Assembly: GCA_947650005.1 (NCBI GenBank)
Contig: CANSTU010000034.1
Coordinates: 1 to 36,397, forward strand
Length of the DNA: 36,397 nt
From: an uncultured Lachnospiraceae bacterium
GTDB lineage: Bacteria; Bacillota; Clostridia; Lachnospirales; Lachnospiraceae
Direction: 5' to 3'
Shown: positions 1,531 to 21,302 of the stretch, piece by piece
How positions within the stretch are numbered: position 1 is the stretch's first letter
How the letters are laid out: each line of letters opens with the position of its first letter
Translations under genes and position numbers: made by a program
The notes under the pieces: model-generated
Seen by the model: the letters and a program-made list of their open reading frames with translations, nothing else
Told to the model about the DNA's origin: nothing
Database searches by the model: none

Positions 1531-1582
1531 TTTACCCATCTGTGTACAGGACACGCACTCAGATTAAGGAATTGAAAGTTTA

Positions 1583-1625
1583 AATTTTGCTTCCATCTAC
1601 GCGCTTTAGCGCACTTACAAACCAG
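1583..1625 (-). repeat. Orphan copy of the hairpin leader element
   Basis: Minus-strand sequence TTTGTAAGTGCGCTAAAGCG continues into GCGTAGATGGAAGCAAA. It has the GCGC TAAA GCGC stem (1601-1612) and a degraded AGATGGGAGC block, but no start codon follows. It sits 70 nt upstream of the functional-looking copy at 1465-1530. The gap 1475-1748 holds these elements and no gene. Confidence 0.65.
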
Positions 1626-1748
1626 AGGAACGAAGATTTGGAAAAGCTTCCGCTCCCAGCTTCCCACCCATCACAGGCTGCGCCCGCTAGGCTGCCGACG
1701 ATAAAGCGTTTTAAACTTCCAACCGATCCTCAGTCGCCTTATCACCTT

Positions 1749-2957
1749 TCAATATTTTCTCCTGTCCTTTAATTCATCGTAAAGCAGACAGTAATCCGCA
1801 TATCGCGACGCGCCGATTTTCCCCTCCGCAAGGGCCTTCTTCACGCCGCATCCCGGTTCCCTCAGATGGGCGCAGCCAGAAAAGCGGCATGCGGCTTCCC
1901 ACTTGGAAAACTCAGGAAAAAAGCCGGCCAGTTCTTCCTTTTCTATCCCGTATACCCCTGCAAGCTCGATGGAACTAAAGCCCGGGGTGTCCACAATATA
2001 GGTGCCGGGACGAATACAGATCAGTTCGGAATGCCTGGTAGTATGCCGTCCCCTTTTTATCTTAGCGCTGACCTCTCCAGTTTCCATTAAAATTCCGTCC
2101 TGTAGACCGTTAATCAGCGAAGATTTTCCCACACCGCTGGGCCCGGCCACCGCAGTGGTCCGGTTTTGCAGGATAGCCTGCAGTTCGCCGAGACCTTCTT
2201 GTTGTACGGCGCTGGTAAACAGAACCGGATAGCCTGCAATACGGTAATCCCATGCCAGCTTCTCCAATTCCCCTTCTCCTGCTAAATCGCGCTTGTTAAA
2301 ACAGATACAGCAGGGAATCCCCTGCTGCTCCATGGTAATCAGAAACCGGTCCAACAGGTTCAGGTTAGGTTCCGGGTTTGCAGCTGCCAGGATCACCAAT
2401 GCTTGATCCACATTGGCCACCGCAGGACGGATGAGCGCATTTTTTCTGGAAAGGATTCGGCGGACATTCCCTTCCCGCTCCTCCTCATCCAGCACGTCCA
2501 TTTCCACGTAATCCCCGGGAAGAGGCTTCATCCCGTCCTTCCGGAAAATTCCTTTTGCCCGGCATTCATAGACCACGTCCCGCAGGATAGCCTGGCCATC
2601 CGTCCCTCCCCTTCTGAGACACGCCGTTGGGCCGTCTTTCTTTCCTTTTCCCACGCAGGCTGTCAGGCCATCCCCGCCTCTTCTTTCAGCGCAAGATGTC
2701 AAGACATTTCCATCTCTCCCTTCAGCGCAGGCCGTCAGGCCATCTTTGTCTCTCCCTTCAGCGCAGGCCGTCAGGCCATCTCCACCTTCCCTTTCAGAGC
2801 AGGCTGTCAAGACATTTCCGCCCACCTTTTCAGCGCAATCAGCCTGACCATCTGCCTCTTCTCCCTGAGGATAGCCCACTGCATCCGCTGCCCTATCCTC
2901 TTCCAATACCTGCACATAATAGAAACCCGCAATGCCTCTAATAATCCGTCCCCGCAT
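1749..2957 (-). CDS. rsgA: Ribosome small-subunit GTPase RsgA with repeat-expanded N-terminal domain
   Basis: RsgA is a circularly permuted GTPase that aids late 30S subunit maturation. Visible motifs are NKRD (G4), AGPSGVGKSSLIN (G1), a threonine-bearing switch RGRHTTRH, DTPGFSS (G3) and the C-terminal zinc knuckle with C, H and C residues around CRFSGCAHLREPGCGVK. The OB-fold begins as usual (MRGRIIRGIAGFYYVQV) and resumes at VVYECRAKGIFRKD, but about 100 residues are inserted between these, made of a 12-residue repeat. The 402 residues compare with about 290 in typical homologues. The ATG at 2957 is preferred; a GTG at 2963 overlapping the prkC stop is possible. It is translationally close to prkC. 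Confidence 0.93.
   Translation of the reverse strand: MRGRIIRGIAGFYYVQVLEEDRAADAVGYPQGEEADGQADCAEKVGGNVLTACSEREGGDGLTACAEGRDKDGLTACAEGRDGNVLTSCAERRGGDGLTACVGKGKKDGPTACLRRGGTDGQAILRDVVYECRAKGIFRKDGMKPLPGDYVEMDVLDEEEREGNVRRILSRKNALIRPAVANVDQALVILAAANPEPNLNLLDRFLITMEQQGIPCCICFNKRDLAGEGELEKLAWDYRIAGYPVLFTSAVQQEGLGELQAILQNRTTAVAGPSGVGKSSLINGLQDGILMETGEVSAKIKRGRHTTRHSELICIRPGTYIVDTPGFSSIELAGVYGIEKEELAGFFPEFSKWEAACRFSGCAHLREPGCGVKKALAEGKIGASRYADYCLLYDELKDRRKY
2581..2868 (-). repeat. 36-bp in-frame tandem repeat inside rsgA
   Basis: Seven to eight units start at 2581, 2617, 2653, 2689, 2725, 2761, 2797 and 2833, exactly 36 bp apart. The best-conserved units begin GCGCAGGCCGTCAGGCCATC on plus. Translated on minus the unit is 12 residues, approximately xREGGDGLTACAE. 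The outer units are most diverged. There are no spacers, so this is a minisatellite-like coding repeat and not CRISPR. Confidence 0.9.
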
Positions 2958-2959
2958 AC

Positions 2960-5065: not shown

Positions 5066-5093
5066 CCTAACTCCCATCTGCCGTCCCGGCGGG
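5066..5093 (-). repeat. Hairpin leader element before prkC
   Basis: Minus strand: CCCGCCGGGACGGC, then AGATGGGAGTTAGG and ATG. The stem is weaker than in other copies, but the downstream block and spacing match, and GATTTGG sits upstream where other copies have GATTTGTAT. It lies in the 56-bp gap between the PP2C stop and prkC, so the kinase has its own ribosome-binding site. Confidence 0.6.
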
Positions 5094-5121
5094 TGTCCAA
5101 ATCGAGACGGTTATCCACCAT

Positions 5122-5859
5122 CTATGCGAACGGGTCAACCACAATGACCGCGATGTTATCTCTTCCACCATTATCATTCGCCGCCTGGATCAAGGCCTTT
5201 GCCCCTTCGCGGACTCCCTCTTCCTCCGTCAGGATCCGATAGATCTCCGTATCCTCCAGCATATCCGTTAAGCCGTCCGAACACAGGAGTACCAGATTCC
5301 CGGGCGCAAGATCTTTCTCAAAGCAGTCTACCTTCAGGTTCTCTTCCAGCCCCACCGCACGGGTAATGATGTTTTTATTCGGATGAATCCTGGCCTCTTC
5401 CCTGTTGATGCCTCCCACGCGCACCATCTCCTGCACAAGGGAATGGTCCTCAGTAATCTGTCTGATTCCCCCATTGACCACATAAAGCCGGCTATCGCCC
5501 ACATTGGCCGTTATCAGGGTCTCTCCTTCAATGCATGCCGCCACTACAGTGGTTCCCATCCCATAGAGGCGTTCATCCTGCCCTGCCAATCGCTCCAGCA
5601 CACCGTTCGCCTCCCGGATCGCATCCGTGAGGATCTCCGGTATTCCGGTTTTTTTTGATTCCTGTATGCTTTTCAGAATGATTTCCACCGCACAGCTGGA
5701 GGCATAACCTCCGGCCCTATGGCCCCCCATACCGTCTGCCACCAGGAAAATATTAGGCAGATTACCCACCGGCTCCGTGGAGGCATACAAGTGGTCCTGA
5801 TTCAATTGTCTCTTTTTTCCGATATCCGTAATGGAAAACGCCTTCACTTCGTATCTCAC
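5122..5859 (-). CDS. prpC: PP2C-type serine/threonine phosphatase (PrpC/Stp)
   Basis: The 245-residue manganese-dependent phosphatase reverses phosphorylation by the adjacent PASTA kinase. PP2C motifs appear in order: SITDIGKKRQLNQD, VADGMGGHRAG (metal aspartate and glycine), MGTTVVAA, ANVGDSRLY, EDHSLVQEMV, CSDGLTD and GGRDNIAVI. The start is a GTG at 5859 whose GTGA overlaps the rlmN stop codon, implying translational coupling. The AAAGG just before it is closer than ideal, but no other start fits the family N-terminus. The rlmN-PP2C-kinase-rsgA order is conserved in Clostridia. Confidence 0.94.
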   Translation of the reverse strand: MRYEVKAFSITDIGKKRQLNQDHLYASTEPVGNLPNIFLVADGMGGHRAGGYASSCAVEIILKSIQESKKTGIPEILTDAIREANGVLERLAGQDERLYGMGTTVVAACIEGETLITANVGDSRLYVVNGGIRQITEDHSLVQEMVRVGGINREEARIHPNKNIITRAVGLEENLKVDCFEKDLAPGNLVLLCSDGLTDMLEDTEIYRILTEEEGVREGAKALIQAANDNGGRDNIAVIVVDPFA

Positions 5860-6893
5860 CTTTCTTCGGACAGATGACGGCGGCGCAGCTGCCCGCAGGC
5901 GCCGTCGATATCCCTGCCCATTTCCCTTCTAATGGTAACATTTATTCTATTTTTTTCAAGTTCCTTTTTAAAGGTCTCCGTAGCCAAACGGCCGGATTCT
6001 CGATAATCCCTCTCTCGGATGGGATTCACTGGGATCAGGTTCACATGTGCCGCAAGCGGCTTTGCCAGAGCTGAAAGCCGTCTGGCGTCCGCCGGTGAAT
6101 CGTTTATGCCGCCCACCAGCGCATATTCAAAGGTGATCCTCCTGCCCGTCTTTTCAAAATAGTATGCGCACGCCTCCATCAGTTCATCCAGAGACCATCT
6201 TTCGGCGATAGGCATCAGGCTACGGCGCTTTTCGTCCGTGGCCGCGTGCAGGGAAAGGGCCAGGGTAATCTGCATCCCTTCCTCCGCCAGCCGCCTCATC
6301 TGCGGCACAAGGCCGCAGGTGGAAACGGTAATATTCCTTTGGCTGATGTGCAGCCCGCCTTCCGAAGAAAGCAGCTGCAGGAACCTCACCAGATTGTCAT
6401 AATTATCCAATGGCTCCCCAGTCCCCATGACCACCACGTTGGAAACCCGCTCCCCCGTAATCCTTGTGATGGAGTAGACCTGCTCCAACATTTCAGAAGG
6501 CAGCAGGTTCCTCACCCAGCCGTCCAAGGTGGAAGCACAGAAGCGGCATCCCATCCTGCAGCCTGCCTGGGAAGAGATGCACACAGAATTTCCGTGCTTA
6601 TATTTCATCCAAACGCTTTCCACCAGATTTCCATCCCCCAAGGAAAACAGGAATTTCCGCGTTTGGTCCAAAGCGGATTCCTGCATTTTCACCAATTCAA
6701 GACGGATGAGGGGATGGGTATCCAAAAGACGCTTCCTAAAATCGCCCGGCAGGTTCGTCATCCGGTCGTAGTCCTCCGCCAGCTTGGCATGCATCCATCC
6801 ATAGAGCTGGGCGGCGCGGAAACCCTTTTCCCCCAGATCTTCCACTCCCCTTTTCAATTCTTCCAGCGTCATGGATTTGATATCATATCCCAT
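5856..6893 (-). CDS. rlmN: Dual-specificity RNA methyltransferase RlmN
   Basis: RlmN is a radical-SAM enzyme that methylates C2 of adenosine 2503 in 23S rRNA and A37 in some tRNAs. The 345-residue protein has the cluster-binding CRMGCRFC motif (C-x3-C-x2-C), the N-terminal accessory helices, VVMGTGEPLDNYDN, and the C-terminal catalytic cysteine in DIDGACGQL. The start is the ATG at 6893; the ATG at 6905 is part of the hairpin leader. The 3' end overlaps the PP2C start by four bases. The gap upstream to rsmB (6894-7139) carries several repeat elements, so this gene can be initiated separately from rsmB. Confidence 0.96.
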   Translation of the reverse strand: MGYDIKSMTLEELKRGVEDLGEKGFRAAQLYGWMHAKLAEDYDRMTNLPGDFRKRLLDTHPLIRLELVKMQESALDQTRKFLFSLGDGNLVESVWMKYKHGNSVCISSQAGCRMGCRFCASTLDGWVRNLLPSEMLEQVYSITRITGERVSNVVVMGTGEPLDNYDNLVRFLQLLSSEGGLHISQRNITVSTCGLVPQMRRLAEEGMQITLALSLHAATDEKRRSLMPIAERWSLDELMEACAYYFEKTGRRITFEYALVGGINDSPADARRLSALAKPLAAHVNLIPVNPIRERDYRESGRLATETFKKELEKNRINVTIRREMGRDIDGACGQLRRRHLSEER

Positions 6894-6895
6894 GT

Positions 6896-6960
6896 TTGCT
6901 CCCATCTAACACGTCAAGGCGCGTATACAAATCGGGGATTGAAAAGGTCAATTTTCAATC
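6896..6960 (-). repeat. Hairpin leader element (two hairpins) before rlmN
   Basis: Minus strand: AT stem GATTGAAAA / TTTTCAATC (6937-6960), GATTTGTAT, then ACGCG CCTTGA CGTGT (6909-6924), then AGATGGGAGCAAAC and ATG. The GC stem differs from the phosphatase copy at most positions yet still pairs, with one G-U. The AT stem arms match the phosphatase copy while the loop differs. Confidence 0.78.
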
Positions 6961-7110
6961 TTATACCCATTGAGCATCACAGGCTCTGTCTGTGATACTC
7001 CCATCCATCAGGAGTTTAAAACGAAATATAAAGCTTGACTCCCATCTGCTCACTTTGGCGCGTATATAAATCAGAGATGAGAGAAAAGATAACAGTCTTT
7101 CCCTCTTATC
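6961..7110 (-). repeat. Orphan hairpin-element copies between rsmB and rlmN
   Basis: Minus strand from 7110: an imperfect stem GATAAGAGGGAAAGA / TCTTTTCTCTCATC (about 7076-7110), GATTTATATACGCGCC, then GCAGATGGGAGTC (near 7030) with no start codon. A second block GATGGGAGT is followed by ATCACAG ACAGAGC CTGTGAT (6977-6997), a perfect 7-bp stem. AATGGGTATAAG then leads into the rlmN element; the phosphatase copy has ATGGGTAAAG at the same place. Confidence 0.6.
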
Positions 7111-7139
7111 CACAATCCGCCGACATATTGGCATTTCAC

Positions 7140-8507
7140 TTAGGAAAGGCGCCTGAAACAGGAGAGAAAGAAGCCGTCCGTCTCGAAAAATCCCGGCAAA
7201 AGCTGGCACATTCCTTCCCCCTCCTGCCCGGCCATTATCTCTTCAGGCAGCCTGCCCTTCAGGGAAACCGGTGCGAAAGGAAACGTACCGGAAAACCATT
7301 CCGCCATCCTCTCGTTTTCTTCCCGGTTAATTGTGCAGGTGCTATAGACCAGGATTCCTCCGGGTTTGACGTATTCCCAAACGGTTTCCAGGATCTTTCT
7401 CTGCAATGCCGCCACTTCCTTAAGGCTCTCTGGAGACACCCTGTATTTGATATCCGCCTTCCTTCCGATCACTCCCAGGCCGGAGCAGGGCAGGTCCGCC
7501 AGAAGCACGTCCGCCGTCCCTGTCATGGCAGGATCCCGCATTGTGGCATCCCAGACTCGCACCTCCAGATTGGACAGCCCCATTCTATCCGCATTCTCCC
7601 TTATGTATGCGGCCTTTTTCTCCGACACATCCCGGGCCTGTACGATACCGCGCCCGACCAGGCACTCCGCTGCATGGACGGCCTTGCCTCCGGGCGCGGC
7701 ACATACGTCCAAGACCAGAATATTTTTCTCTACGCCTCCCCCAAGGCCGGCACATTCCGCCACCAACATGCTGCTCACATCCTGCACAGCGAATTTTCCC
7801 TCCGCAAATCCCGGCAGCTGAGCCACATTTCCCACTCGTTTTAACAGATAGGCATATGAAAGGAGCGGATGACGCCTGGGATCGGCGCCTGCTTTCCCGA
7901 GTTCGTCCAGAACCGTTCTTTTCTCTTCTTCCGTCATCCGTGGAGAAATACGGACAGCCACAGGCCGCTCTTCCAAGAGTCCCTGCAGCATCCGTTCCGT
8001 TTTCTCCGTCCCATAGTCGGATGCCCACATCCGAACGATCCATTCAGGCATGGAATAGTACACAGACAGATATCGAAAAGGTTCTTTTTTCCGGTCCGGC
8101 CAGGGAATTTGATCTTTCCGGCAAGAAAGGCTGCGCAGTACGCCGTTCACAAAGCCCTTCAGAGGCTGGAAATGCCTTCTTGCCGCCAACTTTACCGCTT
8201 CATTGCAGGCCGCCGCATCAGGTACTCCCTCCATAAAAAGGATCTGAAACGCTCCCATCCGAAGCACATTCCGAATGAGCGGCTTCATCCTGCGTACCGG
8301 GACGCTGGAAAAGAAATCCAATACATAGTCCAGCTGGATCCGACGTTCCGTCACCCCCTGCGTAAGCCGCTTGGCAAAGGCCTTCTCCCGTTCTTCCAGA
8401 TAATCGTATTTATTCAGCACATCCCGAAGGAGCAGATTTTCATATCCCCCGCCCCGCTCCGTTTCCAGAAGCATATCCAGAACCAGTTCCCTTGCGCTTA
8501 TACCCAT
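7140..8507 (-). CDS. rsmB: 16S rRNA m5C967 methyltransferase RsmB
   Basis: RsmB methylates cytosine 967 of 16S rRNA with S-adenosylmethionine. The 455-residue protein has an N-terminal NusB-like helical domain (ARELVLDMLLETERGGGYEN) and a C-terminal Rossmann methyltransferase domain with the SAM loop DVCAAPGGKAVHAAE, the PCSGLGVIGRKADIKYR motif and the catalytic cysteine in YSTCTINREENE. The ATG at 8507 is chosen because MGISARELVLDML matches the family N-terminus and GAAAGGG lies just upstream; the open frame extends further to 8645 without family resemblance. It lies between the zinc peptidase and rlmN, as in other Clostridia. Confidence 0.95.
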   Translation of the reverse strand: MGISARELVLDMLLETERGGGYENLLLRDVLNKYDYLEEREKAFAKRLTQGVTERRIQLDYVLDFFSSVPVRRMKPLIRNVLRMGAFQILFMEGVPDAAACNEAVKLAARRHFQPLKGFVNGVLRSLSCRKDQIPWPDRKKEPFRYLSVYYSMPEWIVRMWASDYGTEKTERMLQGLLEERPVAVRISPRMTEEEKRTVLDELGKAGADPRRHPLLSYAYLLKRVGNVAQLPGFAEGKFAVQDVSSMLVAECAGLGGGVEKNILVLDVCAAPGGKAVHAAECLVGRGIVQARDVSEKKAAYIRENADRMGLSNLEVRVWDATMRDPAMTGTADVLLADLPCSGLGVIGRKADIKYRVSPESLKEVAALQRKILETVWEYVKPGGILVYSTCTINREENERMAEWFSGTFPFAPVSLKGRLPEEIMAGQEGEGMCQLLPGFFETDGFFLSCFRRLS

Positions 8508-10454: not shown

Positions 10455-10493
10455 ATGAATAAAATCCTTTTATCACAAGCGGGTTTTATTCAT
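10455..10493 (-). terminator. Hairpin overlapping the def stop codon (possible terminator/attenuator)
   Basis: Minus strand ATGAATAAAACCC pairs with GGATTTTATTCAT (one mismatch in 13) with a 13-nt loop. The left arm includes the def TAA stop, and the right arm ends TTTTATTCAT. The AT-rich arms make termination possible but weak; read-through into fmt is likely. Confidence 0.4.
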
Positions 10494-10974
10494 ACTCCTC
10501 TTCATATTCTTCTTCCGCCACGTCCGTCAGCTCGCCTTCCACCTTCTCCACATACATGTGTCCGTCCAGATGGTCCACCTCATGGCAAATCGCCCTGGCC
10601 AAAAGCTCCGTCCCCTCCACTTCTATGGGCTGCATATCCCTGTCATAGGCTTTCACCTTCACATAATTCGGCCTGGTCACGGTACCGCTCTTCCCGGGCA
10701 GGCTCAGGCAGCCTTCCCCTCCGGTCTGTTCCCCGCTGGTTTCCATGATGCGGGGATTGACCAGCACGATCAGATCCTCCCCTGTCACGTCGATCACCAC
10801 GATCCGTTTCAGAACCCCTACCTGGGGAGCCGCCAGCCCCACGCCGTTCGCATCGTACATAGTATCAATCATATCGTCGATCAGTTCCCGCGTCCGGGGC
10901 GTCATTTCCTTTACTTCCTTACACGTTTTTTCCAATATGGGGTCTCCCATGAGCCTGATATTTCTGATTGCCAT
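10486..10974 (-). CDS. def: Peptide deformylase
   Basis: Def removes the formyl group from nascent N-terminal methionine. The 162-residue metalloenzyme has all three motifs: GVGLAAPQVG, EGCLSLPG and HEVDHLDG, which supply the metal-binding cysteine and two histidines. The short C-terminal tail is acidic (EEEYEEEYE). The ATG at 10974 follows GGAGGG at good spacing and gives the family N-terminus MAIRNIRLMGDP; the frame extends upstream without support. In related genomes def lies directly after priA; here three accessory genes separate them and def appears to have its own promoter. Confidence 0.96.
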   Translation of the reverse strand: MAIRNIRLMGDPILEKTCKEVKEMTPRTRELIDDMIDTMYDANGVGLAAPQVGVLKRIVVIDVTGEDLIVLVNPRIMETSGEQTGGEGCLSLPGKSGTVTRPNYVKVKAYDRDMQPIEVEGTELLARAICHEVDHLDGHMYVEKVEGELTDVAEEEYEEEYE

Positions 10975-10993
10975 TCCTATCCCTCCTGCATTT

Positions 10994-11102
10994 GGCATAC
11001 AAAATATGCCTCCGCTTTAATCCGTCCGTTTGTACTCCATGTACCGCCATTTAAGGGCTTCCTATCGAAATAATATATAATCATACCATAATCTAGGCCC
11101 AA
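10994..11102 (-). promoter_or_regulatory. Putative def promoter and leader hairpin
   Basis: On minus, an extended -10 TGGTATGAT (complement of 11080-11088) is just downstream of the accessory gene stop; TTGGGC (11097-11102) with a 17-nt gap to TATATA is an alternative reading. The leader has a 6-bp stem GGCATA TTTTG TATGCC (10994-11010) shortly before the GGAGGG ribosome-binding site. Confidence 0.45.
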
Positions 11103-11105
11103 TTT

Positions 11106-12107
11106 CTATCCCTTTCCGAAATCCTCTTCCATGATGTACTGCATCATATCCTGGGGAAGCATGGTATATCCTTTTGCCTTCAGCTGGGGAAGCTGTTGCG
11201 TATATTTGGTTTTTAGGGAAGACAGATAATAATCCTTATAATGATAATCTCTCAGCCTTTCCACTTGGCCGTCGCAATACTTCAGCGCTATCGTCTCCCT
11301 GGTCTTCCGGATCCTGCCCTCGATCTCCTCTATCCATTTTTCCATATCCGTTCTGGTTGAAACGGGAATCTGATCCTGAAATTTGTCATATTCCGTCCGC
11401 GCATCCTCAAGCTCCTTCTCATCCTTCTTTAAATACAGGCCCTTGCACCAGCCGGCGATTTTCCAGTCCAGATTGTCCGCCGCATCCGGAAACCGCGCCC
11501 GAAATGCCAGTTTCAGCTGTCCTTCCGCTATATTCCTATTGGTGGATGAATCATAAAACTCGAGGATCAGTCCCTCCCATTGGCGGATCAGCTCCTCCTT
11601 CTCATACGCCTGAGACAGCTCGTCCACCAACGTGGAGGCGAGGGAATACACTCTTTCCGCCAGTTTTTCCAGTGCCTCCACCGCAGGCTGGTAATCCTCG
11701 GCCTGTGTCGGCTCCTCCTTCTGTATCGCATTCCGAAGCCACTGCTGGGCGCGTCTACGCACATCCCCGGTGCCGCTCTCCTCGCTGACGTTATGGGCAA
11801 AATTCGTACGCAGATCCTGCACCAACGCCTGGCAGTCCTGCAGATTGCCGAATACGTCCCGGCATTTCCGGCCGAGGCTGCCTCCCAGCTTCCCGTCCAG
11901 CCTTTTCAGCCTGCCGATCAGCCCCGCATCCACCACGAATTTATACAGGTTTGCCACGCCCTTGAGAAATCTGCCGTCGTCTCCGAAAATCCGAACGCTG
12001 TCCGGCTCGTAATTGCACAGTAAAAACAGATGGGGCGCTATTCTTTCCTGCACCAGCGCGTTCAATTCCTCCGCGCCATCCCGGTAAAAAAGAAGGCTTC
12101 TGTTCAT
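11106..12107 (-). CDS. HEPN-motif protein, putative RNase partner of the SIR2-like/STAND gene
   Basis: I do not recognise a named family. The 333-residue soluble protein is predominantly helical and charged. Around residues 98-106 it has DLRTNFAHN, an R-x4-H motif (R100, H105) with the adjacent N, as in the active site of HEPN ribonucleases found in toxins and abortive-infection effectors. The C-terminal two thirds look coiled-coil rich (EKELEDARTEYDKF, WIEEIEGRIRKTRETIA). The ATG overlaps the upstream STAND gene stop (ATGA), and GGAGGG inside that gene's last codons serves as ribosome-binding site, so the two are translationally coupled. I infer an effector or regulator; a single motif is not proof of RNase activity. 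Confidence 0.6.
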   Translation of the reverse strand: MNRSLLFYRDGAEELNALVQERIAPHLFLLCNYEPDSVRIFGDDGRFLKGVANLYKFVVDAGLIGRLKRLDGKLGGSLGRKCRDVFGNLQDCQALVQDLRTNFAHNVSEESGTGDVRRRAQQWLRNAIQKEEPTQAEDYQPAVEALEKLAERVYSLASTLVDELSQAYEKEELIRQWEGLILEFYDSSTNRNIAEGQLKLAFRARFPDAADNLDWKIAGWCKGLYLKKDEKELEDARTEYDKFQDQIPVSTRTDMEKWIEEIEGRIRKTRETIALKYCDGQVERLRDYHYKDYYLSSLKTKYTQQLPQLKAKGYTMLPQDMMQYIMEEDFGKG

Positions 12108-15100
12108 GGTCTGCCCTCCAATCTCTTACGGCCCTCCGCCGTATACAGGGAAAATCCCATATAGCCGATGCCCATTTCCAGGCCGGGCAGATATTCGTTT
12201 TCCTCGGGCATTTTACGGTTTCCCAGGTTGTTTAAGAAGAAACGGACTCCCTTCTTATTGCCCAGGTACAGCGGAAGACCATCCACCTTAATGAAGCCCT
12301 TAAAGCGTTCCTTGGCGTCGATCACCTTGCCCGCGTACGCGGCCGGAGCGCCGTCTGACGTACAGATCATATATGGAACCCGCATCCGCGGCGTGGCGTA
12401 AAAGGCCTCCTCATTCAGGTTAACCAGCATATCTGCGGCCTCCCGATAGTCCCCCGCAAGCTGCACCACGGACAGGGCATGGATCAGGACGACGATGGGA
12501 CGCCTGTTGGAATTGGTGCATGCCTCATAGAGACAGCAGATCCTTCTGATATCCTCCCACTGCCCGCGATCCAGCCTGGTCATCCGGCGTTCCTGCCCGC
12601 GGTCGGACAGGGGTCTCCTGTTATAGCACATCCAGGCCACCCGGAGCAGTAGATACAGAGCATGGGAATTCCTCTCCATGCACTCCGCATACTCCTTTTT
12701 GCTGAGGAAATCATAAATCTCCTGGCATTTCTCCAGCTGTTCGACAGACAATTCGGCCGTCTCGTCCTCCAGATCCCTTCCCGCCTGGTTCAATCCGCCC
12801 AACTCCAGCTCCTGCTGCGCCACAAAAGTGATGGCGGAGGCGTTGTTCTGCTCCAGCATAGTCTGGAACAGACCGGCAAAGGAAGCGCTGCAGCTTCCGT
12901 CCAAAATGCTGCGGATACCGACCCGAACGGCGCTGCCATACTGCCGGATACGCGTTAAATGCTGGCCAAGCTCGTCCACGCCGGCTGGCCCCCGATCTTG
13001 GATATCGGCGCTCAACGCATCGTCCACATACATCATTATCTCGCTCAGCAGAGCGATCTTTTTCTCTTCCCCGTCCGCATCCTGATATTCCTTTTCAAAT
13101 AGATCAAACAGGGCATTATAAATATATCCGTTGAGCGGGTCGCTGTTGAGCGCCTTCGTCAGCATCTGGTACATGGGACGGTAAGGCAGCGGATTGTAAA
13201 TCGAACAGTCGACCCTCGGCTCCAGCTCTTTTTTCCGGCACAGGCGGAAATACTCGTTCAGAATCTTTTCCAGGCTCATGTTGCAGCGGCACAGCTCCAC
13301 GGTCAGGGAATTGATCTGGGAGGCTACCTGACGCCTGCAGTTATAATCCACATCGGAGCGCTCCAGCATATCGATATTGGCATTGGCCAGATCCACCGCC
13401 TTTTTCAGCTGTTTCAGTCTGGTATAATAGGTTTCCTCGGTGAAAATAGCGTCGTACACATCCCAGCATTCCAATCCCCCCAGTTCGTTTTCGCTGGCAG
13501 AACGGCCGTGCACGATCCTGGACCAATTGTTACCGAAATATTCCCGCAGGAACGTAATTTCAATGGATGCAAAGCTGGCATCCGTATCCTCCATCCCGAT
13601 TTCTTCCCGCATATAGGTCAGCTTATCGATCATTTGATCCATATTTTTTAGCAGCAGGTTGTGTTCCGTATCCCCCTGATCCTGAAACTTCTCATAATCC
13701 GAGTTCGGGCCCAGGATCCGGATGAGCCGCTGCAGCGTCCTTTTCAGGAACGGATCCTGGGATCCGTACTGCCTGTAGCTGTAGATGTAGTAATCCAACA
13801 TCTGCAGAACCATACCGATGGTCTTATCCGGCTCGCTGATATAATTTTTCAGGTGGATTTCCGCCTCCCTGGCGCTTCGGTAATAGAAGCAGAACTCGCC
13901 TTCCTCGTTTTCCCGATAGAAAATCCACGGGATAGAAGATGTCACGATCTTGAACAGCTCCCGCTTGCTGTCCGAGTAGAAAAGCTCGGCCTGTCCGGCA
14001 TTCCCCTCGTACAGCAGATAGAGCGCCAAGGACACCGGCGTATCCAGCTTAAAACGGCTGAAAAGCGCGACGCAGTCGTTTAACCGGCCCAGGTTTTTCA
14101 AAGCCTGATCCTCTTTTTCCTCCGCAGCCTCCTCCGGCCCATCCAGGGTGATTCCGGCCTCCTGTAATGCCTTCTGTATGGGAGTGAGCGCCTTTTCCTG
14201 CGTTTTATCCGCACTCTCCCCCATATAACCCTTCATCTGTTCCTGGACATAGCGGAAGACGATCCGCTGCTCATCGCCCAGTCCCTGCTCCAGGGGCGGC
14301 TGCAGCGCCACGATCAGTTCATAGAAATAGTCAAACAGGCTCGCATCCGGCATATTTTTCAGTTTTTCCCACTTCCTTTTGATGTGGGAGGAATTTTGCG
14401 GACAATATTTCCTTATATTATTCATCAATTCATATTCTTCGCGGCCGTTGATCCAGCGGTTGCTGTTGACAAAATAACAGCCATTGTAATAGGATACTGC
14501 AGCCGGAACACCGTCTGAGCTCTCCCGAAATCCCGTCTCTTTCTCCCAGACATATCGGCGCACCTCGTCCTGACGGGCCTTTTCCAGGGCCAGGCTGCGG
14601 TACGCGCTGCACACTAGGATGAAGCGGCGCCCCCTGTTGTCCAGCTGTCTGGCGATGTTTTTCGCGTTCTTCTCGATATTGTGATAGGCAGAGCCGTCCC
14701 AGATCACCAAAATGCGCGTATCCGGCGTATCCGCTTTTCCCGCGGTCTCGATCGTCTGCATCATATTGTCCAGCTCTTCCAGATCCTCATTGATATTCAA
14801 TTCCTTCTTGGTAATAAAAATGACCGGATTGATCTTCTTCTGGAAGATCCGATAGGCCAGGGCCCCCAGCACGATACTCTTGCTGCTTCCCGGATCCCCG
14901 TTTAAAATGATCGGCGTGGCATATCCGTAGCCGGCCATTTCCTTTCCGTCCAGGATGTTACTGACCAGCTCCGTCAGGATTTCCCCGTACTTCCTTTTCA
15001 GGTAGAATTCCGACTGGGGCAGGTAGCCGTACCACTGCGGGCCGTAGACCGCGGTTCTCGTCAGGAAATTGGCGAACCATCTCGCCTGCTGAATCCTCCC

Positions 15101-15868
15101 CAGCGGACGAATCTCATAGACCTTCTCTTCGGTCAGAAGCTCCCCCACATTCTTATAACGCAGCAGCTGGCTCTTGGGCAGAAATACAGGCTTTCTGCCC
15201 TTATGGAACAGGCTTTTGGAGGCATCCGGATCCTCCTTTGCCTCCGGCGCATCCTCCGTGCCCCGACGGTCCAGCATCTGCGCCAAGGTCTCCCTGTAAT
15301 GAGGAAAGTTCATCTTTTTCGCGGACTTCAACAGCTTCGCGGTCTCCGGATCGTCCGGATCCATACCGAACAGGCTGATACTGCCTCCCTGGCATTTTCC
15401 CCATGCAACCACAAGGGATGTCCTTTTGAGCTCGTTCTCCTCCCCCGGGCGGTAACCCACTATAACCATCTGGCTGACCACGTCCAGCTTGGCCATGACC
15501 GCTGCCAGGATGGTTTTGCATTCGTCCTGCTTTTGTTCTAGGAGGAGTTCCGGATCCTCTTCCGCCTCTTCCACGGCCCCGGCGCCGAAGCATCGGATCA
15601 CCGGAAGCTGTGAACGGTTGAACAATTTTAGGGGAAGTTCTCCCACGCTGTTGTATTCCTTAATCCTTCTGCCGTCCTTTTCAAAATATTTACAGAAGCC
15701 CTCTTCCTGATTCGTCGTGATCACACAGCTCCAGGGAAGATGGCAGACCTCAGCGGTCAATTCTTCTTCGGAGGCGCCTGTCCCGACGAACAGGATCATA
15801 TTGTTGACGTTGAAGCTCTGAATCAGCTCCGCAATGACCGCATCCTCTTCTTGGATCGAAATTCCCAT
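12104..15868 (-). CDS. SIR2-like / STAND P-loop NTPase, putative defence protein
   Basis: This is a 1254-residue multidomain protein. Residues about 20-200 resemble a SIR2-like domain: ILFVGTGAS (nucleotide loop, 25-33), VITTNQE (49-55), VIRCFGAGA (90-98) and MVIVGYRPGEENEL (134-147). Where active SIR2 proteins have a catalytic histidine in an HG motif, this one reads FG, so NAD cleavage is uncertain. A P-loop NTPase follows: Walker A NGDPGSSKS (323-331), Walker B RILVIWDGS (385-393) and a sensor-like RRFILVCSAYR (414-424). The remaining 800 residues are helical, as in the sensor arm of STAND proteins. The architecture matches NLR-like antiphage proteins such as SIR2-STAND AVAST types. Start 15868 follows a hairpin leader and a weak GGTGG. 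Confidence 0.7.
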   Translation of the reverse strand: MGISIQEEDAVIAELIQSFNVNNMILFVGTGASEEELTAEVCHLPWSCVITTNQEEGFCKYFEKDGRRIKEYNSVGELPLKLFNRSQLPVIRCFGAGAVEEAEEDPELLLEQKQDECKTILAAVMAKLDVVSQMVIVGYRPGEENELKRTSLVVAWGKCQGGSISLFGMDPDDPETAKLLKSAKKMNFPHYRETLAQMLDRRGTEDAPEAKEDPDASKSLFHKGRKPVFLPKSQLLRYKNVGELLTEEKVYEIRPLGRIQQARWFANFLTRTAVYGPQWYGYLPQSEFYLKRKYGEILTELVSNILDGKEMAGYGYATPIILNGDPGSSKSIVLGALAYRIFQKKINPVIFITKKELNINEDLEELDNMMQTIETAGKADTPDTRILVIWDGSAYHNIEKNAKNIARQLDNRGRRFILVCSAYRSLALEKARQDEVRRYVWEKETGFRESSDGVPAAVSYYNGCYFVNSNRWINGREEYELMNNIRKYCPQNSSHIKRKWEKLKNMPDASLFDYFYELIVALQPPLEQGLGDEQRIVFRYVQEQMKGYMGESADKTQEKALTPIQKALQEAGITLDGPEEAAEEKEDQALKNLGRLNDCVALFSRFKLDTPVSLALYLLYEGNAGQAELFYSDSKRELFKIVTSSIPWIFYRENEEGEFCFYYRSAREAEIHLKNYISEPDKTIGMVLQMLDYYIYSYRQYGSQDPFLKRTLQRLIRILGPNSDYEKFQDQGDTEHNLLLKNMDQMIDKLTYMREEIGMEDTDASFASIEITFLREYFGNNWSRIVHGRSASENELGGLECWDVYDAIFTEETYYTRLKQLKKAVDLANANIDMLERSDVDYNCRRQVASQINSLTVELCRCNMSLEKILNEYFRLCRKKELEPRVDCSIYNPLPYRPMYQMLTKALNSDPLNGYIYNALFDLFEKEYQDADGEEKKIALLSEIMMYVDDALSADIQDRGPAGVDELGQHLTRIRQYGSAVRVGIRSILDGSCSASFAGLFQTMLEQNNASAITFVAQQELELGGLNQAGRDLEDETAELSVEQLEKCQEIYDFLSKKEYAECMERNSHALYLLLRVAWMCYNRRPLSDRGQERRMTRLDRGQWEDIRRICCLYEACTNSNRRPIVVLIHALSVVQLAGDYREAADMLVNLNEEAFYATPRMRVPYMICTSDGAPAAYAGKVIDAKERFKGFIKVDGLPLYLGNKKGVRFFLNNLGNRKMPEENEYLPGLEMGIGYMGFSLYTAEGRKRLEGRP

Positions 15869-16006: not shown

Positions 16007-17566
16007 TCACGCTTCCCGCATCAGGACCACCTTGGCCGTTCCTGTGGAATGCCGCCCCTCCAAGGACACTTCCACAAGGAATTCCAGCTTCCCTCCCTCA
16101 TAGAGCTCCGGCCGGAAGACGATCCTCGCCTCCGCCTTGGCCCCGTACAGATTATTCAGCGGAAGCTCAAAGGCCTTTCCGTTTATCGTCTCCACGCCCT
16201 CAGGCATATAGACCCGGATCCTGGCCCACTGCTGCTGGCACATGGTATGGGAATTGACGACGCTAACCTTCACCTCTCTGGTTTCCCCGGCTCTGAAAAA
16301 CACGGAATCCCCATAGTCTACCATCATCCGGAAGGCCGGGAACTCATATCGGGCCACATAGGCGGACAGGCCGCATAAGTCGCGCACGGGAAGCGCCTCA
16401 TCCTTCCCGCCTCCGTTGATACCGGGCAGATAATCCGCGGCCCTCCTACAGTAGAGATCCCTGCCTTCCAGGCATTCTATGCTCATTCCGCCCTCCCCGA
16501 ATATATCGCATCGCTCCGGCCCCAAAAACCCGGGAACCGCGCGCATGACCCGATCCGTCAATTCCGTCACCGTGGAGGGCACCCAGACCCCTCCTGAGGT
16601 TCTGTCGATGCACAGGGTGGAAATTTTATCGTCCAGAGGGGCCGTCCACTTCTCCGGAAGGCCGCTGGCCCCGGATAGAATGCCCAGGACAGCTCCCAGA
16701 GTGGCGCAGGTACAGTCCGTGTCCTCCCCGCAGGATACGGCCATGCAAAGGCTCTTTCCGAAATCCTCTTCTCCGTACATCCATCCCGCAATGGTGAACG
16801 CCACATTCTCCGGCGCATCGAATCCGGGAGCGCCCAGCTCCATTCCCTCGTTTCCCTCCGTCGGAATCTGCGCGATCGTGCAGCCTTGAATGCCAAAGGT
16901 TCCGGGCGCCGTATTGTGGATCCGTCTGCGCGCTTCGGCGAATTCCACTCCGGTATCGTAGCATTCCATGGCTGTGCGGATCGCTTCCGCCGTCCGACAC
17001 TCCTCAGGAATATAGGATAGGGCGATATCGATCAGCTTCCGTTTATCCGTCTCCACAAAGGCCGCGCTCTCCAGAGCCGCGAAAAAAATCTCCCCATACA
17101 CCCCTTCTCCTTCGTGATCCACAATGGCATCCTCATAGGCATAACGGGCCGCCAGCTCCGGATTGCCCGGAGCGAGACATGCCCAGATCTCCGAACGGAT
17201 GAAGCAGCCGCAGCTGTCCTTGTAGATATTGCCCACCACGCCCGAAAGGGGCGGCTGCAGGCCGGCGCGCAGGTTCGCCTTTCCCGTTCCGTATTCCACC
17301 CAGTTCGGAATGCAATAAGAAAGCCAGTATTCCCCCAGGATGGAAGCATTCACATTTCTGCCGTAACGTTCCACTGCTGCCAGCCAGATGATCTGCAGAT
17401 CCAGATCGTCATTGGGCGGCGGCCCCATGGACAGATCCTGTGTATAAAAGGAAATGTCGTTCATCTGCCTGATTCCCTCAAAGGGCGCGCCCAGCACTCC
17501 TCCTATGTTTTTCCCTGTCCAGCATCCCATTACCTTGTCTTTATATGTGGCAAAATCCAGCTTCAT
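16007..17566 (-). CDS. ADP-ribosylglycohydrolase family protein
   Basis: The 519-residue protein belongs to the DraG-like fold that hydrolyses ADP-ribose or related N-glycosidic bonds with two metal ions. Visible family features are GCWTGKNIGGVLGAPFEG at the N-terminus, PPNDDLDLQIIWL in place of the usual TDDT motif, and GEDTDCTCATLGAVLG, corresponding to the GGDTD metal site. Residues after about 360 form a beta-rich accessory domain. Many gut Firmicutes carry such long members with unproven substrates, so it may be a nucleoside or glycoside hydrolase. It starts 39 bp after priA with AGGGAGG upstream and is followed by the SIR2-like gene, whose substrate chemistry would also involve NAD or ADP-ribose. 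Confidence 0.85.
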   Translation of the reverse strand: MKLDFATYKDKVMGCWTGKNIGGVLGAPFEGIRQMNDISFYTQDLSMGPPPNDDLDLQIIWLAAVERYGRNVNASILGEYWLSYCIPNWVEYGTGKANLRAGLQPPLSGVVGNIYKDSCGCFIRSEIWACLAPGNPELAARYAYEDAIVDHEGEGVYGEIFFAALESAAFVETDKRKLIDIALSYIPEECRTAEAIRTAMECYDTGVEFAEARRRIHNTAPGTFGIQGCTIAQIPTEGNEGMELGAPGFDAPENVAFTIAGWMYGEEDFGKSLCMAVSCGEDTDCTCATLGAVLGILSGASGLPEKWTAPLDDKISTLCIDRTSGGVWVPSTVTELTDRVMRAVPGFLGPERCDIFGEGGMSIECLEGRDLYCRRAADYLPGINGGGKDEALPVRDLCGLSAYVARYEFPAFRMMVDYGDSVFFRAGETREVKVSVVNSHTMCQQQWARIRVYMPEGVETINGKAFELPLNNLYGAKAEARIVFRPELYEGGKLEFLVEVSLEGRHSTGTAKVVLMREA

Positions 17567-17605: not shown

Positions 17606-19834
17606 TCAATAGGGCGACATGGGATCAAAATCAAACTGAACCCGTCCAGCTGCCTCCCCCTGCCCCTTCAAATAATGTTCCATCCGATCCTTCAGTCCGG
17701 TTAAAAGCCCATAATCCGGGCTTTTGATATAAAGCGCATACCGGAATACATCATTGATTTTCCCAATGGAGGCAGGCGCCGGGCCGATCACGTACGATCC
17801 CTCCGGCGCCTCCCCCACCAGGGTCCTCATGCATTGCGCCATCTGCGCCGCTCCCTCTTGGGTCGGCGCGCCCACTTGCACCGCCAGGATGTGCGCCACG
17901 GGCGGATAGGCCAAGAGGCTACGGTAAAGGATTTCTTCCTCATAAAAGCCTTCATAATCCTGGGCCGCCGCGTGAACAATGCTGTAATGCTCCGGCTGAT
18001 AGGTCTGAATAACCACCTCTCCAGGCCTGCTCCCTCTGCCTGCCCGGCCCGCCGCCTGGGTAAGAAGCTGGAAAGTCCTCTCCCCGGCCCGATGGTCGCA
18101 CACCCCCAGGGACATGTCAGCCGCCAGAACCCCCATCAGGGTTACATTGGGGAAATCATGCCCCTTTACGATCATCTGCGTCCCCACCAGCACGTCCGCT
18201 TCCCCTGACGCAAAAGCGGAAAGAATCTTTTCATAACTTTCTTTCTTCCGTGTGGTATCCGCATCCATGCGCAGCACCCGTTTACCGGGATATTTCTCCA
18301 AGAGCTGCTCTTCGATCTGTTCCGTCCCGGCCCGGAATCCTCCGATGTATTTGGAGCCGCATTCCGGACACAACCGCACCGCATCCTGTACATAACCGCA
18401 GTAATGGCACGCCAGCGTGCCGTTCCTGTGCTCTGACAGGGATACGTCACAGTGGGGGCATTTCATCACATGGCCGCACATCCGGCAGGACACAAATCCC
18501 GCATACCCCCTCCTGTTTAAGAAAAGCATACTCTGTTCTCCCCTGGAAAACCGATCCTCCAGAAGCTGCGTTAACCTGCGGGAAAAAATGGAACGGTTCC
18601 CGTTCTTTAATTCTTCCCGCAGATCTTCCACATAGACCGTCGGCAGCGTCCCTCCGGTCAGCCGTTCCTCCAGGGTGAAAAGCCGGTAAATTCCTTGCTT
18701 TGCCCGGTAATAGCTGTCCAGGGAGGGCGTGGCGGATCCCAGAAAAACGGAGGCATGATGCAGCCTGGCCAATTCCTCCGCGGTTTCCCGGGCATGATAC
18801 TTGGGCATGGTTTCGCTCTTATAGCTCCCTTCGTGCTCTTCGTCGATGATGATCAGGCCAACCTGCGTAAACGGGGTGAAAAGCGCGGAGCGAGGACCGA
18901 TGATCACATCGATCTCCCCTTTTCTCGCCCGTTCGCACTGATCATATTTTTCCCCGGCAGACAGCGTCGAATTCATCACCGAAACCCGATCCCCGAATCT
19001 TTTATAAAAGCGCAGGACGGTCTGGTAGGTGAGGGCGATTTCCGGAATCAGCATGATGGCCTGCTGCCCCCTTGCCACCACCCCCTCAATGAGCGCCATA
19101 TAGACCTCTGTCTTGCCGCTCCCCGTGATCCCCCGCAACAGATAGGTCCGACGGCGCCCTTCATCGTAGTCCGTCAACACTTCATCCACGATCCGTTGCT
19201 GACCGGCACTCAGCTGACGGCCAGCTTCCCTAGCGGCATCCAGCTTCACCGGATTCCGATAATAGGGTACCGTATTGACAGAAATCAGCCCCGCTTCCTG
19301 AAGGCTTCGGAAGGTGGCGGGAGAGATATTCAGTTTCTTTGCCACCAGCCCCATGGGCAGCTGCTCTTCCGCGATCAGCTCACGCAATACTCTGGCTTTG
19401 GCCGCCTGATGCTTCCTTTCACAGGCCAGCATTTCCCCTCTGGCCTCCTCGCGGCCCACACGCAGGCAGATTTCCTTCTTTTCCTGCGCTTTCATCTTCT
19501 GGCGCACCGGCAGCACGGTTTTCAGGGAATTGATCATGGTGGAGCCATAGTGTTCTTTCATCCAGAAGGCCAGCCGGATCAGCCGGCCTTCCACCTGAAT
19601 GCCGTCCTCCAGGATATCTGCGATCTCTTTGAGCCGGGTTTCATCAAATTCCGCTTCATCCGTCACTTCAATGACGTATCCGGTCCGCAGTCCGTTTCCC
19701 CTTCCAAAAGGAATACGAACGCGCATCCCCGGCTCCAGCATTCCGGACAATTTCTCCGGAATGCGGTAGGCAAAGGGGCGATCCACCTTTTCATGGGAGA
19801 TATCCACGATCACATTTGCAAACCTGCCCTGCAT
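17606..19834 (-). CDS. priA: Primosomal protein N' (replication restart helicase PriA)
   Basis: PriA recognises stalled forks and reloads the replicative helicase. The 742-residue protein has an N-terminal DNA-binding domain (ANVIVDISHEKVDRPFAYRI), helicase motif I GITGSGKTEVY, DEEH in IIDEEHEGSYK, the zinc-binding insertion with paired cysteines (CRMCG, CPHCD, CHYCG, CPECG), and motifs V and VI (GTQMIVKGHDFPNV, QAAGRAGRG). The ATG at 19834 follows GGAGG and gives the family N-terminus; it lies 44 bp inside the 3' end of murE, so the two are probably coupled. Confidence 0.96.
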   Translation of the reverse strand: MQGRFANVIVDISHEKVDRPFAYRIPEKLSGMLEPGMRVRIPFGRGNGLRTGYVIEVTDEAEFDETRLKEIADILEDGIQVEGRLIRLAFWMKEHYGSTMINSLKTVLPVRQKMKAQEKKEICLRVGREEARGEMLACERKHQAAKARVLRELIAEEQLPMGLVAKKLNISPATFRSLQEAGLISVNTVPYYRNPVKLDAAREAGRQLSAGQQRIVDEVLTDYDEGRRRTYLLRGITGSGKTEVYMALIEGVVARGQQAIMLIPEIALTYQTVLRFYKRFGDRVSVMNSTLSAGEKYDQCERARKGEIDVIIGPRSALFTPFTQVGLIIIDEEHEGSYKSETMPKYHARETAEELARLHHASVFLGSATPSLDSYYRAKQGIYRLFTLEERLTGGTLPTVYVEDLREELKNGNRSIFSRRLTQLLEDRFSRGEQSMLFLNRRGYAGFVSCRMCGHVMKCPHCDVSLSEHRNGTLACHYCGYVQDAVRLCPECGSKYIGGFRAGTEQIEEQLLEKYPGKRVLRMDADTTRKKESYEKILSAFASGEADVLVGTQMIVKGHDFPNVTLMGVLAADMSLGVCDHRAGERTFQLLTQAAGRAGRGSRPGEVVIQTYQPEHYSIVHAAAQDYEGFYEEEILYRSLLAYPPVAHILAVQVGAPTQEGAAQMAQCMRTLVGEAPEGSYVIGPAPASIGKINDVFRYALYIKSPDYGLLTGLKDRMEHYLKGQGEAAGRVQFDFDPMSPY

Positions 19835-21302
19835 TGCCCTCCTCCATGATTTCCGCAATCAGCACTCTTTCGTCCATCGGATGCTTCACACCGCATATTT
19901 CCTGATAATCTTCGTGGCCTTTTCCGGCCAAGACAATGATATCCCCGGCCTGTGCGTGCTCTATGGCCCAGGCGATGGCTTCCTTCCGGTCGCAGATCTC
20001 TACGTACTTTCCGTCCGTTTTCCGGATTCCCGTGATGATATCATCGATGATGGCCTGGGGTTCCTCAAACCTGGGATTATCCGAGGTGATGACCGTCAGA
20101 TCCGCCAGCCGGCCGCTCACTTCTCCCATCTCAAGCCGCCGCAGCTTGGAACGGTTTCCGCCGCAGCCGAAGACACACACCAGCCGGCCATGTTCATACT
20201 CTTTCAGCGTGGTCAACAGGCTTTCCAGCGCCATAGCATTGTGGGCATAATCGATAAGCAGCGTAAATTCGTCCGACACCTTTACCGGCTCGATACGTCC
20301 CCGCACCTTCGCCCCTGCCAGAGCGCGTCGGATGTCCTCACAGGATACGCCGAAATGCCTGCAGATCGCAATGGCCGTCAGCGCATTATAGACGCTGAAC
20401 CGCCCCGGCATAGCGATCTGCGCCTCCATCTCCATAAGCCCTTCCACCCGGAACGCCACGCCCAGCCGGCCGTTTTCATTGACCAAGCGCAGATCCGCGG
20501 CCCGCAGGTCGGCCGGGCCGTCACAGCCATAGGTTTCCAAAGTACACGTATGGCCGGAAAGCACCGTTTCCCAGTGGCTATCATCCCGATTCACGATTCC
20601 CACCCGGCACTGGCGGAACAGAAGTCCCTTGCATTGCATGTACTCTTCAAAACTGTCGTGCTCATTGGGGCCAATGTGATCCGGCTCCATATTGGTGAAA
20701 ATACCGAAGTCAAAAACGAATCCCTGGCTGCGGTGAAGCTTCAGCGCCTGGGAGGAAACCTCCATCACCACCGCATCGCAGCCCTCCTCCACCATCCGCG
20801 CCAGATAGGACTGCAGCAGCCAGGATTCCGGCGTGGTATTCTCCGCATGGATGTGGGTATCGCCGATGATCGTTTCAATGGTTCCGATCAGGCCCACCTT
20901 CAGGCCCGCATTTTCCAGGATGGATTTCACCAAATAGGTGGAAGTGGTCTTCCCTTTGGTTCCAGTGATCCCGATGGTTTTCAGCTTTTGTGCCGGATGG
21001 CCGAACCAAGCCGCGGAAAGGGACGCCAACGCATAACGGGTATCCGCCACGCGTAGAATGCATACGTCCGCCCCCTCCGGCACCTTCACCTCTTTACAGA
21101 CGACGAGCGCTGCCGCGCCCTGGGACGCTGCCTGGGCTGCCGCCGTATGCCCGTCGAAATTCGCCCCTTCTATACACACGAATAAGCATCCTTTTGTAAC
21201 TTTCCTGGAATCGTATACCACCGCACTGATCTCTTGATCCGGGACGACGCCCTGCACGACGGATACCTCCAAGTCTTTCAGTAAATCCTTCAATGCTGCC
21301 AT
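19791..21302 (-). CDS. murE: UDP-MurNAc-tripeptide synthetase MurE (meso-DAP adding)
   Basis: MurE adds the third residue to UDP-MurNAc-L-Ala-D-Glu in peptidoglycan synthesis. The 503-residue protein has the P-loop GITGTKGKTTSTYL, TTPES, the central-domain region DYAHNAMALESLL, and SDNPRFEEP, whose DNPR signature indicates meso-diaminopimelate as the amino acid. The ATG at 21302 is chosen because MAALKDLLKDLEV is the family N-terminus and GAGGTGG precedes it; the open frame runs on to 21617 through the foldback element without family resemblance. A good promoter lies at 21415-21442, making murE the likely first gene of a murE-priA-glycohydrolase transcript. Confidence 0.95.
   Translation of the reverse strand: MAALKDLLKDLEVSVVQGVVPDQEISAVVYDSRKVTKGCLFVCIEGANFDGHTAAAQAASQGAAALVVCKEVKVPEGADVCILRVADTRYALASLSAAWFGHPAQKLKTIGITGTKGKTTSTYLVKSILENAGLKVGLIGTIETIIGDTHIHAENTTPESWLLQSYLARMVEEGCDAVVMEVSSQALKLHRSQGFVFDFGIFTNMEPDHIGPNEHDSFEEYMQCKGLLFRQCRVGIVNRDDSHWETVLSGHTCTLETYGCDGPADLRAADLRLVNENGRLGVAFRVEGLMEMEAQIAMPGRFSVYNALTAIAICRHFGVSCEDIRRALAGAKVRGRIEPVKVSDEFTLLIDYAHNAMALESLLTTLKEYEHGRLVCVFGCGGNRSKLRRLEMGEVSGRLADLTVITSDNPRFEEPQAIIDDIITGIRKTDGKYVEICDRKEAIAWAIEHAQAGDIIVLAGKGHEDYQEICGVKHPMDERVLIAEIMEEGNAGQVCKCDRGYLP

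Follow-up and report, generated by a model that had tools for sequence, protein, structure and literature searches.

We analysed a stretch of 36,397 nucleotides from an uncultured Lachnospiraceae bacterium (contig CANSTU010000034.1 of assembly GCA_947650005.1), hereafter the window, in which two overlapping genes encode a 1254-residue protein with SIR2-like and STAND NTPase features (P1) and a 333-residue protein with an R-x4-H motif (P2). The two open reading frames (ORFs) meet at ..GGAGGGCAGACCATGA.., where the stop codon of P1 and the start codon of P2 overlap in ATGA. Lengths, overlap and coordinates agree with a preliminary description made from the letters alone, and all the motifs named there are present, namely GTGAS, TTN, IVGY (residues 136-139), GDPGSSKS and ILVIWD in P1 and R100-x4-H105 in P2 (Table 1). 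Both genes are under purifying selection, as judged from the ratio of nonsynonymous to synonymous substitution rates (dN/dS) between the window and the congener G107. Neither window protein passed a Pfam or NCBIfam cut-off; the top Pfam match of P1 was nSTAND_NTPase5 (E = 0.0072, below the cut-off), and in PADLOC the best match of P1 had E = 0.037 and P2 had none.

Table 1. Features of the P1-P2 operon and of the insertion that carries it (positions in the window).
Feature	Position	Strand	Basis
P1, SIR2-like/STAND NTPase protein, 1254 aa, putative sensor/switch	12104..15868	minus	ORF, ATG start; seven homologous loci; dN/dS 0.10
P1 residues ~20-205 (approximate), degenerate SIR2-like Rossmann domain	15254..15811	minus	KomC profile match, E = 0.0052; strands alternating with helices, low-confidence model
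P1 GTGAS, residues 29-33, SIR2 GxGxS position	15770..15784	minus	not conserved in the family
P1 TTN, residues 51-53, TTNxD position	15710..15718	minus	N kept in 2/7
P1 F94-G95, HG/NG motif position	15584..15589	minus	H in 1/7, N in 0/7
P1 Walker A GDPGSSKS, residues 324-331	14876..14899	minus	K330 in 7/7
P1 Walker B ILVIWD, residues 386-391	14696..14713	minus	WD in 7/7
P1 ~579-663, helices and hairpin, winged-helix-like (tentative)	13880..14134	minus	secondary structure, low-confidence model
P1 ~666-1150, alpha-helical repeat-like region, candidate sensor	12419..13873	minus	secondary structure, low-confidence model
P2, helical protein, 333 aa, candidate HEPN RNase effector	11106..12107	minus	ORF, ATG start; adjoins P1 at 6/7 loci; dN/dS 0.20
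P2 R100-TNFA-H105, HEPN-type R-x4-H	11793..11810	minus	invariant in 6/6
Shine-Dalgarno-like GGAGGG of P2, within the 3' end of P1	12114..12119	minus	junction sequence
ADP-ribosylglycohydrolase gene, same insertion	16007..17566	minus	PF03747, E = 1.4e-40
priA, upstream flank of insertion	17606..19858	minus	family scan
def (peptide deformylase), downstream flank of insertion	10486..10998	minus	PF01327, E = 9.4e-49

P1 is known at seven distinct loci, which represent four or more families within its phylum (f1, f22, f147, f166 and that of an uncultured Clostridia metagenome-assembled genome). Its identity to the window protein is 18-29% outside the genus, 18% being the lowest value found. The gene is rare in every sample: it occurred in 2 of 13 genomes of the genus (the window genome and G107), in 2 of the 5 among these with completeness of 90% or more and contamination of 5% or less, in 3 of 299 genomes of the family (the same two and a 22%-identity homologue in G028) and in 3 of 391 of the class (the window genome, G742 and G889). 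The phylum sample gave four matches among 398 genomes at E ≤ 1e-3, two of them being the window and a genuine relative in G395. The others were discarded: the match in G553 is a 333-residue ORF among replication genes, which we take to be DnaI-like, and that in G378 is a SIR2-STAND protein aligning over its SIR2 region only, which was kept as a comparison with intact SIR2. A scan of named genomes confirmed three of these loci, in Lachnospiraceae bacterium S29_Bin8, in the uncultured Clostridia genome mentioned above (27% identity) and in Blautia sp. An81. Scans of viral contigs with window P1, window P2, A1 and L049 P1 gave no copy, and tblastn with P1 queries found none in plasmids (four of the seven proteins used) or phages (two of the seven).

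P2 lies immediately downstream of P1, overlapping it or at most 1 bp away, at six of the seven loci (window, L008/L041, L042, L015, L049 and L050), and at the seventh, that of Blautia (L043), the contig stops 414 bp past P1. P1 and P2 are a conserved two-gene unit and, because P1 identities outside the genus are 18-29%, their linkage is either old or repeatedly transferred. The examination of gene neighbourhoods proposed in the preliminary description thus upheld the two-gene operon of a STAND protein and an R-x4-H protein, with the Walker motifs kept in 7/7 P1 proteins and R-x4-H in 6/6 P2 proteins. It also excluded the alternative considered there, that homologues are always separate and occur as housekeeping genes in all strains, given this adjacency and the presence of P1 in just two of thirteen congeners.

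At E ≤ 0.1, nSTAND_NTPase5 matched six of the seven P1 proteins (best E = 1.1e-9); nSTAND3 matched three (best E = 1.2e-5, 25.5 bits against a cut-off of 27.2), and window P1 had no nSTAND3 match at E ≤ 1. In a profile comparison of P1 with two SIR2-STAND proteins, one of them the SIR2-nSTAND3 protein encoded at locus L050, the NTPase aligned with 77.5% probability (E = 1.9e-5). With both Walker motifs in place, P1 is predicted to be a STAND-type P-loop NTPase. Matches to mad8 of the MADS system were set aside since they covered the NTPase region only.

A structural model was built from four sequences for residues 1-1200 of P1, leaving out the last 54; its confidence is low, with a predicted local distance difference test score (pLDDT) of 55 and a predicted template modelling score of 0.40. 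In the model a Rossmann-like N-terminal part is followed by a P-loop domain, then by a stretch resembling a winged helix and finally by an extended helical region, the last of these in agreement with the helical C-terminus proposed earlier (predicted helices from about residue 666 to 1150). A Foldseek search of the PDB placed SAMD9, a human antiviral protein, first (E = 2.3e-15, probability 1.00, 1240 columns, 11% identity), Avs4 second (E = 8.2e-5) and NLRP14 tenth (E = 7.2e-4), and in a viral fold library the best match had E = 5.1e-4, most matches being ATPase-type proteins. We read P1 as a member of the wider group of SIR2-STAND-repeat proteins and treat the link to SAMD9 as a lead.

The N-terminal domain of P1 weakly matches the profile of the SIR2 NADase KomC (E = 0.0052), in an alignment that superposes the glycine, TTN and HG positions. 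In hhalign the region aligned with two intact SIR2 domains at the TTN region with 19.5% probability, and SIR2_2 matched one of the seven proteins (E = 0.059). The SIR2-like motifs of the preliminary description are thus there in the letters, but the family does not conserve them (Table 2): GTGAS has become GTGPL already in a relative of 89% identity, and GxGxS, TTNxD and HG or NG are found together in none of the seven. PaAvs5-1 is described as losing immunity in the N110A and D112A mutants and as requiring N or H at the HG/NG site (PMC12931631); the corresponding residues in P1 are retained as N in two, D in two and H in one of seven proteins, never two together. In four of the seven, moreover, no helical insert separates the first Rossmann strand from the second. 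The SIR2-nSTAND3 protein encoded beside the pair at L050 (nSTAND3 E = 8.7e-10; SIR2_2 E = 0.0035, below the cut-off) retains GAGIS, FNWDD and HGD, and hence intact SIR2 domains exist beside P1 and provide a natural contrast to the eroded one. Because no P1 protein has all three motifs together, a SIR2 effector is unlikely, and this role, suggested in the preliminary description, was rejected as the main explanation given the loss of motifs throughout the family.

Table 2. Residues at the three SIR2 motif positions in the seven P1 proteins.
P1 protein	GxGxS position	TTNxD position	HG position
window	GTGAS	TTNQE	FG
L041	GTGPL	TTNQE	FG
L042	GEGFK	TTSDS	HK
L043	GQQYL	TTSVD	YG
L015	GDNFN	TTLRQ	SG
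L049	GQAYL	TSAID	FG
L050	GQEYE	TSLMN	FG

P2 homologues are 246-354 residues long and, outside the genus, 15-28% identical to the window protein. Eight columns are invariant in the six sequences (M1, N16, F47, Y55, D60, R100, H105 and Y185), among them both residues of R-x4-H, which reads RTNFAH, RTAFAH, RTGFFH, RSCFCH, RTFFAH and RNSEQH. R-x4-H did not come up near that position in any of 20,000 shuffles (five sequences, a 78%-identical copy being left out), and eight invariant columns placed at random would include R-x4-6-H with a probability of about 7e-4. In HEPN proteins this motif is described as ending helix 3, with a usually polar residue after the arginine and, when present, an acidic residue in helix 2 (Anantharaman et al., 2013, PMC3710099). 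The residue after the arginine in P2 is polar in all six (T, T, T, S, T, N). The P2 model, built from three sequences, is all-helical with a pLDDT of 57.5; in it, D60 (helix 43-60) and the T, S or N after the arginine would fit a HEPN domain, and the helix count would need one extra helix. Because neither a fold search nor a HEPN family model returned a match, the assignment is motif-based, and we regard P2 as a candidate HEPN RNase, in which fold and activity would be those of the family. Erosion at the catalytic positions of the SIR2-like domain, against retention of R-x4-H and the NTPase motifs, points to P2 as the effector.

Several known systems share parts of this arrangement. Avs5, as described (PMC12931631), has a SIR2-like domain, a STAND P-loop and a helical C-terminus in the order predicted for P1, and its model too resembles SAMD9 strongly by Foldseek. 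However, the SIR2 domain of Avs5 is an NADase that has the GAGxS, TTNxD and HG or NG motifs, and P1, where these are eroded, likewise departs from active SIR2 NADases in general, in which the catalytic N/D and H/N residues are conserved; P1-P2 differs further in having a second conserved gene with R-x4-H. No Avs model of PADLOC was among the matches of the seven P1 proteins at E ≤ 0.1, a result to be read with the fact that the L050 SIR2-nSTAND3 comparison protein also matched none and so gave no working positive control. The core of SAMD9 is described as AlbA_2, a variant SIR2, a P-loop, TPR and OB domains, with bacterial members (PMC5445408), and in SAMD9/SAMD9L the order of variant SIR2-like domain, P-loop NTPase and helical repeats is the one predicted for P1. 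P1 keeps the Walker A lysine, whereas SAMD9 has glycine there (PMC5445408). Among the Pfam matches of P1 there was neither a kinase domain nor AlbA_2, which lies N-terminal to SIR2 and is lost in some SAMD9 members, and no profile matched a C-terminal OB fold, the last 54 residues being outside the model; P1 also differs in having its RNase-like partner encoded in trans.

On the side of P2, the R-x4-6-H signature of HEPN RNases, with its polar residue after the arginine (PMC3710099), is present in six of six proteins. Tha of Staphylococcus aureus prophages, reported to carry RNSIMH and to be activated by a phage tail protein (PMC11087260), shares R-x4-H with P2, whose switch would instead be a separate STAND protein. 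STAND and HEPN also come together in a predicted conflict system described earlier, in which inactive-STAND modules are joined to HEPN or GT4 effectors (PMC8195603); there the NTP-binding motifs are eroded and HEPN is fused, whereas P1 has intact motifs and its HEPN-motif partner is encoded by a gene of its own. Nezha (PMC11559045), a defence operon of a SIR2 protein and a helicase, shares with P1-P2 the two-gene layout and the presence of SIR2, but its HerA-type protein is missing here; where one P1 homologue matches HerA in PADLOC (E = 0.003 and 0.0067), the alignment lies over its P-loop region. Not only SIR2-STAND proteins and HEPN RNases but also fusions of STAND with HEPN have been described before. 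A SIR2-STAND protein paired with a separate HEPN protein was not among the matches listed in the open-access literature (titles and beginnings of abstracts) or in the protein libraries scanned, and within that scope the conserved pair of an eroded-SIR2 STAND protein and a separate HEPN-motif protein appears new.

The window pair belongs, together with an ADP-ribosylglycohydrolase gene, to an inserted cassette that separates priA from def in the window genome and G107; in the other 11 of the 13 congeners priA is followed directly by def, with a gap of about 11-198 bp. The cassette resembles its flanks in GC content (0.53-0.58), and no integrase was found among the four window neighbours scanned (the hydrolase, priA, def and fmt). 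No homologue of the hydrolase is present in the priA-def gap of the 11 congeners or was found within the 14-20 kb surrounding five further P1 loci; it was rejected as a core part on the latter ground and is probably a passenger or an accessory. Elsewhere in the window, positions 30029-31462 encode a radical-SAM maturase-like protein that presumably resembles the SCIFF peptide maturase.

The pair is patchily distributed, and among the relatives some copies of the pair or of P1 are part of a mobile element or have CRISPR or Avs5-like genes nearby. At L015 (G395), genes for Cas6 and a C5 methylase lie within about 3 kb of P1-P2; positions 692-4291 of that locus hold Cas6 and two proteins (391 and 143 residues) with no Pfam match above the cut-off. 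At L050, the SIR2-nSTAND3 gene (4813-8061), for which 'Avs5-like' is a label assigned in this analysis, is 91 bp upstream of the pair, and a three-gene arrangement is possible there. The Blautia homologue sits on an element (L009, 1-9985) with a tyrosine integrase, a MobA/L relaxase and a VapE-like protein; a 96-residue ORF follows P1 just before the contig end. Around L049 and L042 no clear defence genes were seen, judging mostly by reading; three large adjoining ORFs (425, 835 and 1075 residues; L042 595-7763) lie upstream of the pair in the latter, of which the 425- and 1075-residue ones had no Pfam match at E ≤ 0.01.

Judged on sequence, P1-P2 is on balance probably an abortive-infection-type two-gene defence module, in which P1 would be a sensor and switch of the Avs5/SAMD9 type and P2 a HEPN-type RNase effector. 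P1, with its pseudo-SIR2 Rossmann domain, P-loop NTPase and helical C-terminus, would be closed in the resting state and P2 silent. Binding of a phage product to the helical region would be followed by ATP-driven opening and oligomerisation of P1, and the assembly would gather copies of P2, for which the SIR2 domain, dead as a catalyst, would probably offer a surface for docking or polymerisation; alternatively, the opening of P1 may free P2 from inhibition. The P2 dimer would then cut RNA (tRNA or rRNA) and halt the infected cell. In favour of this explanation are the adjacency of P1 and P2 at six of seven loci across several families, the invariant R-x4-H, the Walker motifs kept beside eroded SIR2 residues, the ranking of SAMD9 and Avs4 in the P1 fold search, the insertion in 2 of 13 congeners and the mobile, Cas6 or Avs5-like surroundings of some homologues; from these the HEPN fold, RNase activity, recruitment by P1, phage trigger and abortive outcome are inferred.

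A number of observations weigh against this explanation. The SAMD9 match of the P1 model has a template modelling score of 0.16 and a root-mean-square deviation of 22.3, from a weak model (pLDDT 55), and searches at E ≤ 10 found no sequence-level similarity of P1 to SAMD9. In the P2 model, residues 98-117, which hold R-x4-H, have a pLDDT below 50, and the motif ends the fourth helix (78-106), whereas in HEPN it belongs to the third. The fold search with this low-confidence model gave no match at E ≤ 0.001, and Pfam searches with the six P2 proteins at E ≤ 1 returned no HEPN family, the HMMER filters letting through few matches above about 0.1. Genes read as housekeeping surround the window and L049 loci, and the Blautia assembly has no P2 match, although its contig ends so close to P1. 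Finally, the strong P2 matches (E < 1e-80) among the 391 class genomes speak for the pairing, falling in exactly the three genomes with P1, but this count is partly circular, as the profile includes the P2 proteins of those genomes, and means only that no strong P2 without P1 turned up in the sample. Three further matches there were marginal (4.5e-4 to 6.0e-4), two with in-frame stops; a match in G125 (4.3e-4) was dropped, as it lies within a 1455-residue ORF read as a coiled coil.

Other explanations were weighed on the same evidence. P2 could be a helical adaptor or co-sensor for P1 with R-x4-H in a structural role, as its predicted all-helical, divergent nature, its variable length and the missing Pfam HEPN match would allow; we find this unlikely, for the arginine and histidine are among just eight invariant columns at such low identity, the following residue is always polar and the operon shows no other evident effector. 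HEPN toxins are known in toxin-antitoxin pairs (PMC3710099), and def, fmt and priA are neighbours of the window locus, so that P1 might restrain a HEPN toxin and answer an endogenous signal. A 1250-residue STAND protein would, by general knowledge, be unusual as an antitoxin, and some homologues accompany CRISPR, Avs5-like or mobile genes, which makes such a toxin-antitoxin or stress-response pair distinctly unlikely.

It is very unlikely, too, that P1 is an Avs5-like NADase with its SIR2 domain as effector and P2 as an accessory chaperone or inhibitor. In its favour, GTGAS and TTN do occur in window P1, P1 shows profile similarity to KomC, and the HG histidine is described as dispensable in Avs5, where NG works too (PMC12931631); against these stand the scattered retention of the residues that PaAvs5-1 needs, the change of the first motif in the closest relative, the loss of the helical insert in four proteins and the occurrence of intact SIR2 motifs in the L050 neighbour instead. 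The shared insertion in both carrying genomes of the genus would suit a three-gene NAD/ADP-ribose system, with the ADP-ribosylglycohydrolase reversing a modification made by SIR2; with no hydrolase homologue in the 14-20 kb around five other P1 loci and a SIR2 domain that looks inactive, such a system is highly improbable.

Within the preferred explanation of a defence module, a more specific and rather doubtful proposal is that P1-P2 is a split SAMD9, a pseudo-SIR2/STAND/repeat receptor whose RNA-cutting effector would be a separate HEPN protein in place of the fused AlbA_2 tRNase. The dead SIR2 domain would serve as a docking or polymerising hub through which assembled receptors bring the RNase together as dimers, and these may cut tRNA, the target of SAMD9. 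In antiviral STAND (Avs) proteins as described, effector and receptor share one chain, with the effector at the N-terminus (PMC13245274). A conserved pair with a dead, fused SIR2 domain next to an RNase-like neighbour would show how receptor and effector separate, and the variant SIR2-like domain of SAMD9 proteins would gain a testable role as a platform, in a system compact enough for transfer into laboratory bacteria.

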